Shown: in pieces, positions 20,853 through 30,141 of the stretch
How the letters are laid out: each line of letters opens with the position of its first letter
Numbering within the stretch: the first letter of the stretch is position 1
NCBI RefSeq assembly: GCF_001625445.1
Contig: NZ_LWHG01000032.1
Span: 62,001 to 126,000, forward strand
DNA length: 64,000 nucleotides
From: Haladaptatus sp. R4
GTDB taxonomy: Archaea > Halobacteriota > Halobacteria > Halobacteriales > Haladaptataceae
Direction: 5' to 3'
Position numbers and translations under genes: made by a program
The notes under the pieces: model-generated
What the model saw: only the letters and a program-made list of their open reading frames with translations
Told to the model about the DNA's origin: nothing
Databases searched by the model: none

Positions 20853-21008
20853 GTCCACCGATTCGACGGTGTGATTCATCGATTCGACGGATCGAACGCG
20901 GAACCGATAGGGGAAGTCGGACGGGACAGGCGCAGTCGTTCCGTCCGAACACACTCGTTCCGTCCGAAGGAACCCTTATGCGCCAGCGTGTAGATGATAA
21001 CACGACGC

Positions 21009-22010
21009 ATGAAAAAACTCATCAACGAGCCATCCGCCGTGGTGGACGAGATGCTGGACGGGATGGTCGCCGCGCACCCGGACGAGGTTCGACGATTGCC
21101 GGACTCGAACGTCCTCGTTCGGAACGACGCACCGGTGGAAGGAAAGGTCGCCGTCGTGAGCGGTGGTGGAAGCGGGCACGAACCGACACACGCGGGCTAC
21201 CTCGGTCCCGGGATGCTCGACGGGGCGGCGGCGGGCGAAGTGTTCACGTCGCCGACCGCCGACGAGGTCAGCGAGATGGTACAGGCCTGTGACGGCGGCG
21301 AGGGCGTCCTCATGGTCATCAAGAACTACGAGGGCGACGTGATGAACTTCGAGACGGCGGGGGAACTAGCGGAGATGGAATCCGACGTGGAGGTCGCACA
21401 AGTCGTCGTCAACGACGACGTCGCCGTCGAGGATTCGCTGTACACCTCCGGCCGACGCGGCGTCTGTGGAACCATCTTCGTCCACAAGGTCGCGGGCGCG
21501 ATGGCCGACGAAGGCGGCGATCTGGACGAAGTCCAGCGGGTCGCCCAGAAGGTTATCGACAACGTGGCGACGATGGGAACCGCGCTCACGTCCTGCATCA
21601 CGCCCGAGAAGGGCGAACCCACCTTCGATTTGGGCGACGACGAAATCGAACTCGGCATCGGGATTCACGGCGAACCCGGCGTCGAACTCGTGGACATGAC
21701 CTCGGCCGACGACATCACCGAGCGACTGACCGAGAACGTCCTCGACGACCTCGACCTCGACTCCGGAACGGAGGTCGCGACCATCGTCAACGGGATGGGC
21801 GGAACGCCGCTGTCGGAACTGTACATCGTGAACCGGAAACTCCAGTCGATACTGGAAGACAAAGGGTTGGAGACGTGGGACGCGTGGGTCGGCGACTACA
21901 TGACCTCGCTCGACATGCAGGGCTGTTCGGTGACGGTGTTGGAACTGGACGACGAACTGAAGGAACTGCTGGCGCATCCGGTGGAAACGCCCGCGCTGAC
22001 GGTGACGTAG
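21009..22010 (+). CDS. dhaK: dihydroxyacetone kinase, DhaK substrate-binding subunit
   Basis: 333 residues. GGGSGHEPTH contains the catalytic His57, Asp110 is in NYEGD, and His220 in GIGIHGEPG forms the hemiaminal with dihydroxyacetone. DhaK binds the substrate while DhaL transfers phosphate, giving dihydroxyacetone phosphate for glycolysis. This is the PEP/PTS-dependent type, not the ATP-dependent single-chain kinase. The usual partner genes dhaL and dhaM are 2.1 kb away, beyond opposite-strand genes. ATG 21009 was chosen because KKLINEP is the conserved N-terminus. Confidence 0.96.
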   Translation: MKKLINEPSAVVDEMLDGMVAAHPDEVRRLPDSNVLVRNDAPVEGKVAVVSGGGSGHEPTHAGYLGPGMLDGAAAGEVFTSPTADEVSEMVQACDGGEGVLMVIKNYEGDVMNFETAGELAEMESDVEVAQVVVNDDVAVEDSLYTSGRRGVCGTIFVHKVAGAMADEGGDLDEVQRVAQKVIDNVATMGTALTSCITPEKGEPTFDLGDDEIELGIGIHGEPGVELVDMTSADDITERLTENVLDDLDLDSGTEVATIVNGMGGTPLSELYIVNRKLQSILEDKGLETWDAWVGDYMTSLDMQGCSVTVLELDDELKELLAHPVETPALTVT

Positions 22011-22027
22011 GCGGAAACTGATTTTTA

Positions 22028-23101
22028 TCAGTCCAACTGAATCGAGTAGAGTTTCGGCTCGTCCGTTCCGAACACGAGGTTTCCGTCGCGAACGGCGGGC
22101 GGCGACGTGATGTGACCGTCGTGTTCGTACTCGACGCGTTTTCCGCGGTTCGGATCGATGGAGAGGACGGTTCCGTCGTAACTCGTCAGAAAGAGGGTCG
22201 AACCGCGAATATCGCCCGGCGCGTTCACCCTCGGTGGAAGGTCATTCGTAGCGACGACTTCGCCAGTTTTCGGCTTGACGAGGGAAACCTGACCCTGTTT
22301 ATCCCGTTCCCACGGTTCACCCGTGACGACCGCGAGCAAATCGTCGGACACCAAACCAGCGAACGACACGACCGAACCGGGAAGCGTTCTGCTCCAGCGT
22401 TCCGTGTCGCCGTCGGGGTCGATGCAGACGAGTTCGAGACTGCCGTTTCGGTACACCGACGTCACGACGTCCGATTCGTACAGGAACGGGTGAGCCACCA
22501 TGTTCGAAAACGTCGTCCAGCGCTCTTTGCCGGAATCGAGGTCGAACAGCGCCGTTTCGAGCGACCGAGTGCCGACGACGACCTGACGTCCATCCCGATT
22601 CCACCAGCGACCGGGAACGGTGAGGTCGCCGACACGATGTATCTCGCGGTCACGAACGTCGATACGGTACACGTACGATTCGCTCGTCGTCACGAACGCG
22701 GAGCCATCGATGACGATGGGACGGGACTGGATGCTCGCGTATCCTCCGTCCGGCAGTGCTTGCGACCACCTCAACTCCCCGGACGGATGGAGCAGGACGA
22801 CGTGGTCGGTGACGGTGAGAAACGAGTCCGCGATAGGAACGGGTGGTGTGCCCGCAGCGTTCGAAAGGTTGCGCCGCGTACTCGCGACGGAGTTTCCGGA
22901 ATCCGCGGAAAGGAGACCGATTCCACCGTCATCGGTGGCAACGGCGACGTATTTGTGACCGAGATACGGTTTTTGGGCGATATAATCGCCCTCGAACGGA
23001 GCAGACCAATCGACGGAATTTCCGTTGCCACCGAGCGTACTGCAACCGGAGAGCGTCGTCGCTAAGGCGGTGGAGAGGGCCGCTCGCCTCGTCAATTCCA
23101 T
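22028..23101 (-). CDS. PQQ-like beta-propeller lipoprotein
   Basis: 357 residues. A short Tat-type signal (MELTRRAALSTALATTLSGC) has lipobox Cys20. The remainder is repeated beta-propeller blades of the PQQ_2 type, with motifs such as DLDSGKERWTT, SGELRWSQAL and DPDGDTERWSR. It is probably an outward-facing lipid-anchored scaffold (BamB-like fold) rather than an enzyme, since no quinoprotein catalytic signature is seen. It sits between dhaK and dhaL on the opposite strand; there is no evident functional link. Confidence 0.85.
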   Translation of the reverse strand: MELTRRAALSTALATTLSGCSTLGGNGNSVDWSAPFEGDYIAQKPYLGHKYVAVATDDGGIGLLSADSGNSVASTRRNLSNAAGTPPVPIADSFLTVTDHVVLLHPSGELRWSQALPDGGYASIQSRPIVIDGSAFVTTSESYVYRIDVRDREIHRVGDLTVPGRWWNRDGRQVVVGTRSLETALFDLDSGKERWTTFSNMVAHPFLYESDVVTSVYRNGSLELVCIDPDGDTERWSRTLPGSVVSFAGLVSDDLLAVVTGEPWERDKQGQVSLVKPKTGEVVATNDLPPRVNAPGDIRGSTLFLTSYDGTVLSIDPNRGKRVEYEHDGHITSPPAVRDGNLVFGTDEPKLYSIQLD

Positions 23102-23198
23102 TGGACGAGGCTCAATCAGTATCAGTAATGAGTCTTCTGTTCCGAACAAATCGCAGAAGTATCCGCACAGTATGGCGATAGATTCGGTCGAAGGTCGG

Positions 23199-23486
23199 TT
23201 ATCGTCCAAAGACACCAGCTTCGACCAACAGGAGCGCCGCTAGCGAAATCACGACGAACCAGGCTATCAAGTCAAATCCGAGGACGTTCGGAAGAGAGGA
23301 GTCGGTCAGGGATCCGACGAACCCGAGAAGAAGTGTCGATGAAAGGGGAAGTGAACGGCTTCCGACGATTACGGTAGGAGTTCCGACGTGCAGAGACGAC
23401 CCGAGAGGAGTTCCACCGAGTCGCAAGCAGGAATTGACCCGCAATCGGAACCCGTTCGGCGATAGGGGACACTGCGAGGCACTCAC
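23199..23486 (-). CDS. hypothetical small protein with C-terminal membrane segment
   Basis: A 95-codon frame from 23486; its start overlaps the stop of the zinc protein upstream (ATGA at 23483-23486). The only clear feature is a hydrophobic segment LGFDLIAWFVVISLAALLLVEAGVFG at the end. The N-terminal two thirds has no recognisable pattern. It may be real because of the coupled overlap, or an indel may have corrupted its N-terminus. Confidence 0.4.
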   Translation of the reverse strand: MSASQCPLSPNGFRLRVNSCLRLGGTPLGSSLHVGTPTVIVGSRSLPLSSTLLLGFVGSLTDSSLPNVLGFDLIAWFVVISLAALLLVEAGVFGR

Positions 23487-23839
23487 GGAGATATCAGTTC
23501 CATCTCCCAGTAGAGATGTCGTCTCGCGAGCGAGCCGAAATTATCGTGCCCACAATCGGGACACTCGAAACCATCGACGTCGTCGCGTACGATGGGGAGA
23601 ACGCACCCGCAGTCGTTTTCACAGCGGTTCCGTCGAGGTCCGTCGACGAACGACACCAACAGATCGTTTCTGTGATCTTCGAGATGTGCCGTGCCTCGGT
23701 CGTACATCCCGTCGATGGATTCGGTCTCTAACACCTCGTCGCAGAACTCACAGACGAAATGGTACGTGATCGACGTATCGTCGTGTATCTTCTCGCCACT
23801 GTGCTGGTCACTGTCGGGTCGGCGCGTTGGGACGGTCAT
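23483..23839 (-). CDS. haloarchaeal zinc-binding protein
   Basis: 118 residues, start MTVPTRRPDSDQ. Cys pairs suited to zinc are CEFC (about residue 30), CENDCGC and CPDCGHDNFG. The middle (HLEDHRNDLLVSFVDG) is acidic and hydrophilic. It looks like a small double zinc-ribbon protein, possibly nucleic-acid or protein binding. No catalytic motif. It is probably cotranscribed with the short ORF at 23199. Confidence 0.65.
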   Translation of the reverse strand: MTVPTRRPDSDQHSGEKIHDDTSITYHFVCEFCDEVLETESIDGMYDRGTAHLEDHRNDLLVSFVDGPRRNRCENDCGCVLPIVRDDVDGFECPDCGHDNFGSLARRHLYWEMELISP

Positions 23840-23974
23840 GGTAGCGTGGAGCGAGCGTGAACTGTGTGATGCGCTCCGCGTGAGTCCTTCCGTCACACGA
23901 ATAGAATGCCACTAGACTGCCGAGGAACCGCAAATGACCGGCAGTGGGCGCATAGTGTGTAATCACTCGGCCGT

Positions 23975-23993
23975 TGCACGATGAATACGTGCA
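23975..23993. promoter_or_regulatory. inverted repeat upstream of dhaL
   Basis: TGCACG-ATGAATA-CGTGCA is a perfect 6-bp inverted repeat with a 7-nt spacer, in the 276-bp gap between the divergent zinc-protein gene and dhaL. The size and symmetry suit a regulator site controlling dhaLM or the divergent gene; the binder is unknown. Confidence 0.4.
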
Positions 23994-24115
23994 TGAGATC
24001 ATAAAGATGGTGGCATGGTCTCGCACGGAGACGATGATATCTTTCTCGACTCATACCACCACGGCCCGACAGGAGCGAAGGTTTACCCCGATAGGGTGCA
24101 TGATATCAGGAAACG

Positions 24116-24859
24116 ATGGCAGACACAGCGACGGAACGTGAGGCGGTATTTTCGGCAATCGAACGGGTCGCCGAGCGCATGGCGGACGAGAAGGACTACT
24201 TGACCGACCTCGACTCGGCCATCGGCGACGCCGATCACGGGGCGAACATGAACCGCGGCTTTCAGGCCGTCCTCGAAAAAACGGACGGAATGGACGACGC
24301 TGAACCGGCCGACATCGTGAAGACGGTCGGCGTGACGCTCATCTCGGAGGTCGGCGGGGCCGCCGGACCGCTGTACGGCGGGTCGTTCATGAGCGCCAGC
24401 GCGGAACTGGCGGACGGTCTGACACCGGAAACCACGGTGGCGTTCGCCGAAGCGTTCTTGGAGAAGGTACAGGACAGGGGAGACGCGCCGGTCGGCGCGA
24501 AGACGATGGTGGACGCGCTGACGCCCGCCGTCCACACCTACAAGAAATCCATCGAGCAGGACGACCTCGAACCGGTGGAGGCGCTAACGAAGGCGGTTGA
24601 TGCCGCAGAGCGCGGCGTGAACTTCACGACGCCGATTCGCGCGCTGAAGGGCCGGGCGTCGTACCTGGGCTGGCGGTCGGTCGGGCATCAGGACCCCGGC
24701 GCGACGAGCACCCTGTTCATGCTCGAAGCGATTCAGGAGACCGCCGTTTCCCACCTCGGCGACGGCGACCTCGAAGCAGACGCGACGTCGCCGACGGTAC
24801 CGGACGAGGAAGCGACACCCGAGGCGGCCGACGGCGACGGAACGGAGGTGTCCGAATGA
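24116..24859 (+). CDS. dhaL: dihydroxyacetone kinase, DhaL ADP-binding subunit
   Basis: 247 residues. The Mg-ADP ligands Asp33, Asp38 and Asp40 are in DLDSAIGDADHGANM; GGAAGPLYGG and GRASYLGWRSVGHQDPGA are nucleotide-lid motifs. In the PTS-dependent enzyme, DhaM phosphorylates the ADP bound in DhaL, which then phosphorylates dihydroxyacetone held in DhaK. The C-terminal 35 residues are an acidic tail typical of halophiles. It overlaps dhaM by four bases (ATGA), so the two are coupled. Confidence 0.95.
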   Translation: MADTATEREAVFSAIERVAERMADEKDYLTDLDSAIGDADHGANMNRGFQAVLEKTDGMDDAEPADIVKTVGVTLISEVGGAAGPLYGGSFMSASAELADGLTPETTVAFAEAFLEKVQDRGDAPVGAKTMVDALTPAVHTYKKSIEQDDLEPVEALTKAVDAAERGVNFTTPIRALKGRASYLGWRSVGHQDPGATSTLFMLEAIQETAVSHLGDGDLEADATSPTVPDEEATPEAADGDGTEVSE

Positions 24860-25236
24860 TCGGACTCGTCGTGGTTTCGCTCAGCGAACAGGCCGCAAAC
24901 GGGATTCGGGAGGTCGCCGCCGAGATGGCGGGCGACGTTCCCATCGAGGCGGTCGGCGGCGACCCGGACGGCGGTCTGGGGACGAGCACACCCGTGATTC
25001 AGGAGGCGCTGGATTCGCTCGCCGACGAGGACGGCGTCGTCGTCCTCGTCGACCTGGGCAGTGCGGTGATGAACACCGAACTCGCCATCGAAATGGCCGA
25101 CGTCGAGGCGGAAATCGCCGACGCGCCCATTCTGGAGGGCGCGGTCAACGCGGCCGTCACGGCCAACAGTCCGAAGGCCACGGTCGAATCGGTGTTGGAG
25201 GCCGCGGAAGAAGCGGGAGAAATTTCGAAGCTGTAA
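24856..25236 (+). CDS. dhaM: DhaM phosphotransferase subunit, phospho-acceptor His replaced by Leu
   Basis: 126 residues, the EIIA-mannose-like domain alone. The fold motifs are present (VVVS at 5-8, GLGTSTPVI, VVLVDLGSAVMNTELAIEM, APILEGAVNAA). DhaM normally carries VSHS with phospho-His9; here the sequence is VSLS and codon 9 is CTC. With Leu9 the protein should not accept phosphate from HPr. The rest is intact with no frameshift. It converges on ptsI with five bases between stops. Either this is a base error, or the relay is broken or altered. Confidence 0.9.
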   Translation: MIGLVVVSLSEQAANGIREVAAEMAGDVPIEAVGGDPDGGLGTSTPVIQEALDSLADEDGVVVLVDLGSAVMNTELAIEMADVEAEIADAPILEGAVNAAVTANSPKATVESVLEAAEEAGEISKL

Positions 25237-25241
25237 GGGAT

Positions 25242-26920
25242 TTACAACAACTCGGCGACCTCTTCGCGCGTTTCGGCCGCGAGAACCCGCTCGGCGCGTT
25301 CTTCGCACCGCCTCGGTGTCGATATCCCCGACGTTCGCTTTCACGTCCGGTACGGTTATCGCGCTCATGCTGAGTTCGTCCAGGCCGAGACCGACGAGCA
25401 GTTCCGTCAGGTCGGGGTCGCCAGCCATCTCGCCGCACATGCCGACCCACGCGTCGCCCTCGTGTCCCGCCGAGACCGTCCGACGAATCGCTCGTAGGAC
25501 GGCCGGATAGCGCGGGTCGTGGAGGTCCGAGACTCGCTCGTTTTCACGCGACGCGGCCATCACGTACTGGGTGAGGTCGTTCGTCCCGATGCTCAGGAAC
25601 TCCACCCGCTCGGCGAGCGACTCGGCCATGAACACCGATCCCGGCGTCTCTATCATCACGCCGAGTTCGGGCACGTCGAACGATTCGCCTTCTTCGTCCA
25701 GTTCCTCGGCGACGGTTTCGACCCGCGCGAGCGGCCGCGTCGAGTTCTCGACGCTGGCGACGAGTGGAAACATCACGGCGAGGGTTCCCACCGAATCGTC
25801 CGCGGCCGCGCGCAGCAAGGCGCGCAGTTGGGTTTCGAACAGGTCGGAATCCGGGCCGAGCGAGCGCCGAATCCCGCGCTCGCCGAGGAACGGGTTCGCC
25901 TCGTCCGGCGCGTCGAGGTACGGAATCGGCTTGTCACCGCCGATGTCCAGCGTTCGGACGACGCACCGCTCGTCCGGGAAGGTTGCCAACGCCTCGGTGT
26001 ACACCTCGTACTGTTCGTCCTCGTCCGGCGGCGCGTCGCGGTCGAGGAACAGAAATTCGGTTCGGAACAGGCCGATGCCGTCGGCACCCTGTTCGGCCGC
26101 GACGTCGAGTTCCGCGAGCGTCCCGACGTTCGCCGCGACTTCGATTTCCTCCCCGTCCGCCGTCGAAACGTGGTCGTCGATGACGGGCGTTTCGGCGTCG
26201 GCGATTCGACGCTTCGCGTCCTCGTCGGGATCGATGACGATGACGCCGTTCTCGCCATCGACCAGGAGTTCCCGCCCGTCGCCGACCTGTGCGAGTTCGT
26301 CGCCGACGCCGACGACGGCGGGGATGCCGAGCGAGCGGGCGAAGATCGCGTTCCGAGGTTCGCCCGCCGAATATGGTCGCGAACCCGGACAGCACGTCCG
26401 GATCGAGTTGGGCCGTGTCGCTCGGCGTGAGCCGTTCCGCGACGAGTATCGATCCGTCGGGAAGGTCGCCGAGGTCCATGCGGTCGCCGTCGGTGACGAT
26501 TCGCAGGAGTCGGTCGCGCACGTCGCGCAGGTCGTCGGCCCGTTCGGACATCGAACCCTCCAGGTTCTCGAATCGGGCGATCGGGTCGGTGAACGCACGC
26601 TGGATCGCGTGCGGTGCCGGAAGGCCGTTCTCGATGGCCGCCTCGATGCCGCCGACGATTTCCGGGTCGTCCACGAACGCGCGATGCGCGTCGAAAATCT
26701 CGGCTTCGTCCTCGCCGACGCGGTCGCTCGTTCGCTTCCGCTCCCGTTCGAGCTCCTCGTGTGCGGTCGCTTGCGCGGCCTCGAACGCCGCGAGTTCTTC
26801 CTCGGGATCGACCGTCGTCGGGTCTGGCGGGTCGGGGAGGTCCGTCGCTCCGCGATACCAGACGACCCCACCGACGCCGGCGCGCGGCGTCACGCCGATT
26901 CCGGAGAGTTCGGTCGTCAC
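25242..26920 (-). CDS. ptsI: PTS enzyme I (PEP-protein phosphotransferase), two frameshifts
   Basis: About 560 residues. It autophosphorylates from PEP and passes phosphate to HPr. The start (GTG 26920, MTTELSGIGVTP) overlaps the HPr stop. The N-terminal domain ends at IFGGRTS, where the expected phospho-His codon is lost: at 26353 a single G stands between TCG and AAC, and the reading resumes in another frame as NAIFARSLGIPAVVG. The PEP-binding half is complete (GIGLFRTEFLFLDRD, MIETPGSVFM, GTNDLTQY, VGMCGEMAGDP). A second net loss near 25308 restores the C-terminus (ERAERVLAAETREEVAELL). Confidence 0.9.
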
Positions 26921-27186
26921 GCTTCCCCATCCTCCGGCGTGGTGAGCACGTCTTCCAGTGCGTCGAGGGCGTCTTCGGCGTCGTCTCCCTCCGCGACGAG
27001 TTGAACGTCATCTCCTTGGCGCGCGTTGAGCGTCGTCACCGACAGCATGCTTCGGGCGTTGACCGCGTCGCCGTCCGCGAGGGCGACGGTGATCTCCGAT
27101 TCGAACTCGTTGGCGGTCGTGACGAAGCGCGATGCTGGTCGGGCGTGCAGTCCGGCCTCGGGGACGACGGTGACAGTACGTTCCAT
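26917..27186 (-). CDS. ptsH: HPr phosphocarrier protein
   Basis: 89 residues, normal HPr length. His14 in EAGLHARPAS is the phospho-acceptor, and the regulatory region reads NARSMLSVTTLNARQGDD. It receives phosphate from enzyme I and should deliver it to DhaM, since no sugar permease is found in the window. Start MERTVTVVP at 27186; its stop overlaps the enzyme I GTG (GTGA), so the two are coupled. Confidence 0.95.
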   Translation of the reverse strand: MERTVTVVPEAGLHARPASRFVTTANEFESEITVALADGDAVNARSMLSVTTLNARQGDDVQLVAEGDDAEDALDALEDVLTTPEDGEA

Positions 27187-27226
27187 ACGGGTCATTTCCA
27201 ACGTTTGGTGTGGTACCCGCTTCATG

Positions 27227-27478: not shown

Positions 27479-28432
27479 TTAGCTCCCTCCCGTCGAACCT
27501 TCGTGTTCTTCATCGTGGACCGCCGGTTCCTCGGGTTCGACATCCTCGGCTTCGAGTTTGATGATGTACTTCCGAGTCAGTACGTCGTATAACCCACCGC
27601 CGATGATGCCGCCCACGATGGTCGAAACGGTTGGAACCCACCATTCACCGCGCGGACCGGGGAACGCGATGGATCCCCATCCGGCGAAGTAGCCCATGAT
27701 TCGCGGGCCGAGGTCGCGGGCCGGATTCAGCGCGGCCATGCTGATGGGCGATTCGTATTGGACGAGTGCCGCCACGAGTAGGCCGATGAGGAACGCCGCC
27801 AGCGCCGGAGAGGCGCGCGTTCCCATCGGGTTCTCGTCGTCCACGAGCGCGAAGATGACGGCGACGAGGATGGCCGTGATGACCATCTCGCTGAAGAACG
27901 CTTGCGGGAACGAGACGAGTCCCGCCGCCTGCTGTAACGAGTTGAGGTCACCGGTCTTCACACCCGCGAACGCCGGATTCGGGAAGAACGTCCAGAGCGT
28001 CATCCCCGTAATCGAACTCCCCGGTTCCCCGCGAACGACGTTGTTCGCCTGTGAGAACGAGTCGTAATATCCCGACCACGTGATGAGCAGGGTTCCGGCC
28101 GCCAGAAACGCCCCGATGATTTGGGACACGATGTAGCCGGGGACGTGTCGCCACGGGAAGTCCCGCCAGACGGCGTTGGCAATCGTCACCGCCGGGTTGA
28201 TGTGACCTTCAGAGACACCGCCGACCCAGTACACCGCAAACATCACGGCGAACCCCCACAGGATGGACACGCCGAACAGGTCGTATCCCCCCGTCAGTAT
28301 CGTGACGACGACCGCCCCGTCACCGAGCAGGACGAGGATGAACGTGCCGACGAGTTCGTTGATGTACTTCGCACGCCAGTACTCCTGGGGGCCCTGCGTT
28401 GCTGCTCCGGATTCGTCGGCCGTTTCCGACAT
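27479..28432 (-). CDS. glpF: glycerol facilitator (aquaglyceroporin)
   Basis: 317 residues, MIP family. The two half-helix signatures are HINPAVT at 78-83 and ALNPARDLGPR at 234-244; the Asp after the second NPAR marks the glycerol-conducting subgroup. Six membrane helices are followed by an acidic cytoplasmic tail. It passes glycerol through the membrane for GlpK to trap. The ATG (28432) is one base past the corrected glpK stop (28434-28436), so the pair is an operon. The reading is intact. Confidence 0.95.
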   Translation of the reverse strand: MSETADESGAATQGPQEYWRAKYINELVGTFILVLLGDGAVVVTILTGGYDLFGVSILWGFAVMFAVYWVGGVSEGHINPAVTIANAVWRDFPWRHVPGYIVSQIIGAFLAAGTLLITWSGYYDSFSQANNVVRGEPGSSITGMTLWTFFPNPAFAGVKTGDLNSLQQAAGLVSFPQAFFSEMVITAILVAVIFALVDDENPMGTRASPALAAFLIGLLVAALVQYESPISMAALNPARDLGPRIMGYFAGWGSIAFPGPRGEWWVPTVSTIVGGIIGGGLYDVLTRKYIIKLEAEDVEPEEPAVHDEEHEGSTGGS

Positions 28433-28433
28433 C

Positions 28434-29971
<1,538 letters not shown>

Positions 29972-30141
29972 CTGAATGCCCTCGTTTTGGTGCGCCGGAC
30001 TCCCCCACTCGACGACACCTCTGGGAGAGAGACGGGACGGAGAATAATGATGTTTTCCCACAGGGAGGTTTCCACGCCCGTAGCCCTGGGTTTTCACTCT
30101 CTCGCCAACCAGTCGTGAAAAATAGTCGTCAATTTCGTCGC

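Follow-up and report, generated by a model that had tools for sequence, protein, structure and literature searches.

The closest known systems to the locus described here are those of Haladaptatus salinisoli (WP_227357033.1) and Haloferax volcanii (dhaKLM), both with a PTS-dependent DhaM (TIGR02364). As set out in a study of Hfx. volcanii (PMC3863723), the phosphoryl relay runs from PEP through enzyme I, HPr, DhaM and DhaL-ADP to DhaK. That study names glycerol kinase as the main enzyme phosphorylating dihydroxyacetone (DHA) in Hfx. volcanii, and a dhaKLM deletion strain still grows on DHA.

The window analysed here, a stretch of 64,000 nucleotides of contig C32 (NZ_LWHG01000032.1) in the Haladaptatus sp. 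R4 draft genome, holds an ordinary haloarchaeal PTS-dependent DHA kinase locus (Table 1). With dhaK placed upstream, dhaL and dhaM follow on the forward strand, and then come enzyme I, HPr, an aquaporin and glpK on the opposite strand. The run dhaL, dhaM, ptsP, HPr, MIP, glpK is annotated in the same order on plasmid NZ_CP085330.1 of H. salinisoli. DhaL and DhaK are separate ORFs, in contrast to the fused Dak1-Dak2 form of ATP-dependent DHA kinase, their best scores being with TIGR02365 and TIGR02363, respectively.

Table 1. Features of the DHA kinase locus of Haladaptatus sp. R4 (positions in the window).
Feature	Position	Strand	Remarks
dhaK	20994..22010	+	TIGR02363, 477.7 bits (cut-off 406.25); only Dak1 found in the genome
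dhaL	24116..24859	+	TIGR02365, 221 bits (cut-off 138.3); overlaps the start of dhaM by four bases
dhaM	24856..25236	+	single-domain phosphoryl donor subunit of the EIIA-Man type; TIGR02364 and PF03610 above cut-offs
Palindrome	24876..24888		perfect 6-1-6, TTCGCT-C-AGCGAA; made perfect by base 24881 (T), not by the base of the relatives
Codon 9 of dhaM	24880..24882	+	CTC (Leu)
ptsI/ptsP (enzyme I)	25245..26920	-	frame broken twice, near 26350 and around 25303-25311
Enzyme I active-site stretch	26348..26356	-	TSHAA in 7 of 7 congeners compared; R4 has other bases in place of the His codon and those following it, and lacks 2 bases
HPr	26917..27225	-	intact; His of the ..GLHARPAS.. motif present
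MIP/aquaporin (GlpF-like)	27479..28642	-	upstream part of the ORF overlaps the 3' end of glpK
glpK	28437..30016	-	seven single-base frame breaks

The spacing of the locus varies within the genus. In R4 about 2.1 kb separate dhaK from dhaL (22011-24115), with a PQQ_2 beta-propeller gene (22028-23215, minus strand) and a small ORF in between; in seven congeners the gap measures roughly 0.1 to 1.9 kb, and neither the PQQ_2 gene nor the small ORF was found in the stretches compared. The region homologous to the C32 stretch is plasmid-borne in H. salinisoli and H. caseinilyticus; H. halobius has it on chromosome 2.

The dhaM ORF encodes a protein of 126 amino acids that begins with MIGLVVVSLSEQ. 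It matches the PTS-dependent DhaM family (108.9 bits with TIGR02364, above the cut-off of 98.25) and contains an EIIA-Man domain (PF03610, 83.2 bits against 21.4). It is linked to dhaK and dhaL, its product is 74-92% identical to the DhaM proteins of congeners, and its reading frame is unbroken. What the deposited protein lacks is the phospho-acceptor histidine, residue 9 being Leu; the original prediction, made from the sequence alone, had read codon 9 as CTC, and this reading is confirmed. Its statement that the gene carries no indel holds for dhaM itself but not for its partners, enzyme I and glpK, which are broken two and seven times. Likewise, the other family features that it described as intact are so in DhaM, DhaL, DhaK and HPr; the complete phosphoryl relay is not intact, with enzyme I twice out of frame. 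The R4 deposit thus differs from known PTS-dependent systems both in the Leu that replaces His9 and in its frame-broken enzyme I and glpK.

The known role of DhaM requires this histidine. In a protein search, DhaM matches were present in 9 of 28 genomes of the family, the window's own included, and in 141 of 391 genomes of the class. Merging 15 duplicates among the 155 loci with a match covering residue 9 left 140 distinct haloarchaeal stretches, a count that leaves out three weak matches (G379, G301 and G050). Twelve other loci had no match over residue 9: two of them (L129 and L167) hold a dhaM whose match stops short of this position, while the remaining ten come from parts of the window's genome, or of congeners, that lie elsewhere than dhaM. 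Once aligned, 139 of the 140 stretches have His at residue 9, and Leu occurs in the R4 window alone. The alignment that the original prediction called for thus finds no relative with Leu, and the R4 change goes beyond ordinary variation. Among solved structures, chains 3ct6, 3cr3 and 3b48 also carry His at the aligned place. The first two, DhaM of Lactococcus lactis, align over residues 3-118 and have His where the R4 window has Leu.

The quality of the assembly bears on this residue. The R4 draft (34 contigs, 4.9 Mb, longest contig 1,088,768 bp) was sequenced with the Ion PGM alone, on a 318 chip, and assembled with SPAdes 3.5 (PMC5034142); the assembly at hand comprises 4,896,694 bases in 34 contigs, of which C11 has 1,088,768. 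We aligned proteins of the congener G008, in a frame-aware manner, to the genomes of R4 and of a second congener, G006, in three regions: the DHA region on C32, a ribosomal region on C11 and an RNA polymerase region on C21. Gap counts from pairwise blastn were noisy, and the frame-aware alignment was used in their place. The reference ORFs from G008 were those that behaved as coding when G006 and G008 were compared, though a few are probably not genes. Of the 84 intact in G006, 24 are broken in R4; of the 63 intact in R4, G006 has 3 broken (sign test, p = 4.9e-5). In-frame stops in R4 ORFs were left unused as evidence, as some of these ORFs are probably not real genes.

Frame breaks are unevenly spread over the three regions, with 27 in 8,469 amino acids on C32, 6 in 8,625 on C11 and 5 in 8,716 on C21, a density four to five times as high on the C32 stretch as on the other two. 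The genes broken on C32 include many unrelated ones. On C21 a CCC-to-CC deletion (L180:3039; G000:C21, ~743039) interrupts the gene for RNA polymerase A' at residue 416, and both halves match the A' family. RNA polymerase A' is essential, and the organism cannot live without it. As the assembly breaks a gene that cannot be broken, the frame breaks of R4 are at least partly sequence errors. We read those of C32 in the same way, as errors and not as decay, because seven genuine frameshifts would not long leave glpK with changes dominated by third codon positions (see below); a plasmid-like replicon with poorer coverage might explain their number. According to PMC3623719, indels dominate the errors of the Ion PGM. 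The R4 assembly resembles that description in its single-base indels, several of them in short homopolymers, in unrelated genes; the change at codon 9 differs from it in being a substitution, the rarer error class.

Selection on the R4 lineage speaks to the same question. Relative to G006 and G008, the changes proper to R4 at codon positions 1, 2 and 3 number 8, 4 and 41 in glpK, 6, 2 and 49 in dhaK, and 5, 2 and 20 in dhaM. Pseudogene decay of the DHA region is rejected for these three genes on account of such dominance of the third position, and the system has therefore not been long decayed. Within C32, the own-lineage ratio shows no difference between broken and intact genes (0.671 and 0.601, p = 0.32).

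We then asked of the substitutions whether they are in excess in R4. PMC3623719 puts substitution errors at 0.04-0.17% of bases in PGM reads, where indels outnumber them by an order of magnitude. They should mostly vanish in a consensus. At residues invariant among congeners, R4 shows 49 private changes, 5 of them radical, against 14-39 private and 1-5 radical changes in seven congeners, and by the radical changes there is no clear substitution excess in R4. Clustering of miscalled substitutions at frame breaks was not seen, mismatches being about as frequent near the breaks (38 of 324, 0.117) as far from them (338 of 2,985, 0.113; p = 0.85). The own-lineage share of changes at positions 1 and 2 is mildly raised in R4, as it could be on a longer branch. 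When own-specific amino-acid changes were regressed gene by gene on congener rates, the intercept was 0.034 (95% 0.019-0.053). We give it no weight, because the intercept of the congener control was also positive (0.014) and the set contains overlapping ORFs on opposite strands.

Elsewhere in the genome, the second dhaM that the original prediction had thought worth looking for was found neither by protein search nor as a second EIIA-Man (PF03610) domain, and a second Dak1 (DhaK) was likewise not found, although absence from a 95.85%-complete draft is not proof. An intact second glycerol kinase gene is present at G000:C21:191084-192589. The enzyme I of the locus is the sole one above the cut-off in the genome, and its frame breaks are probably sequence errors. 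By eye, an inverted repeat (GCGGGCGAA ... TTCGCCCGC) can be seen with the active-site lesion of enzyme I in its loop. It is a curious coincidence that the phospho-His codons of both enzyme I and DhaM, members of one relay, are affected. A PEP-utilising enzyme resembling enzyme I and PEP synthase, at G000:C21:666037-667223, is in two adjoining pieces, perhaps through another frame error.

We consider it probable that the Leu codon stems from a wrong base in the consensus of a draft made from Ion PGM reads alone, and that the dhaM of the organism still encodes the phospho-acceptor His. The known relay would then run from PEP through enzyme I and HPr to His9 of DhaM and on to DhaL-ADP, and DHA would be phosphorylated on DhaK. 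The original prediction had left three options, a wrong base, an inactive kinase or another protein that charges DhaL. The wrong base now has the strongest support, since the assembly rests on Ion Torrent reads alone and is demonstrably rich in errors; an inactive kinase is less likely and would take the form of a very recent mutation, and another donor is unsupported, with one EIIA-Man and one Dak1 domain found. Against the miscall count the nature of the proven R4 errors, which are mainly indels, the lack of any indel in dhaM itself, and the substitution excess that is not clear. A real and very recent substitution, by which R4, in nature or in culture, would carry a null dhaM allele and a dead DHA kinase, is the main rival but rather unlikely. 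Glycerol kinase would then phosphorylate DHA, as it mainly does in Hfx. volcanii, where dhaKLM is dispensable (PMC3863723), and R4 has the intact second glpK on C21. The rarity of substitutions among Ion Torrent errors (PMC3623719) favours such an allele too, and the disrupted active-site His codon of enzyme I would fit the loss of the same relay. However, with frame breaks spread across many unrelated genes, the lesions of the partners are poor evidence of a real loss; dhaK, dhaM and glpK bear no mark of relaxed selection on the R4 lineage, and all 139 other distinct sequences keep His at residue 9. Whether a miscall or a genuine null mutation, an event at precisely the codon for His9 is rare, and our weighting of error against recent mutation is a judgement rather than a computed value. 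It favours error because the contig is of poor quality, the site is otherwise invariant and selection on dhaK and dhaM is intact. We infer that this particular base is wrong; we do not class the deposited Leu9 protein among working PTS donors, and regard the gene as most probably a dhaM with a miscalled base.

Two other readings bear on the same codon. That DhaM-Leu9 is retained as a working protein, with DhaL-ADP recharged by ATP or by another phosphocarrier or donor, can hardly be credited. The selection on dhaK and dhaM along the R4 lineage agrees with it, but this result covers the past of the lineage, when His may have been present; moreover, one EIIA-Man and one Dak1 are found in the genome, the change is shared with no relative, and the histidine, aligned in 3ct6 and 3cr3, is needed for the known role of DhaM. 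The remaining reading concerns how the base arose, and overlaps with both the miscall and the recent mutation: base 24881 would come from a hairpin-templated change (quasi-palindrome correction), either in vivo or while the library was amplified. We think this improbable. The T at this position completes the 6-1-6 palindrome, extending the stem to 6, against 3 with any other base. On the other side, the palindrome was noticed post hoc, the 64 kb window contains 37 of the kind, with about 5% of sampled positions in such stems, and among own-specific differences the gains of a stem of at least 6 roughly balance the losses (98 vs 105, 119 vs 102 and 47 vs 68 in the three regions). Palindrome-templated change as a general process is therefore not seen in these regions, and the palindrome at codon 9 gives no more than a hint of a hairpin-related origin.

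If, as we favour, the base is wrong, anomalies read from the Ion-PGM-only R4 draft need checking before any biological inference, because even RNA polymerase A' is broken in the assembly. If Leu9 is real, the route from PEP through enzyme I, HPr, DhaM and DhaL-ADP to DhaK could not run. R4 would then be a natural DHA-kinase null, fitting the dispensability of dhaKLM in Hfx. volcanii; given that dispensability and the second glycerol kinase on C21, loss of dhaM function would be tolerated and not in itself remarkable. In the hardly credible case that Leu is real while DhaK and DhaL are still in use, with DhaL-ADP recharged by exchange for ATP or by another donor, a step in evolution from a PTS-dependent towards an ATP-dependent kinase would have been caught in one strain.
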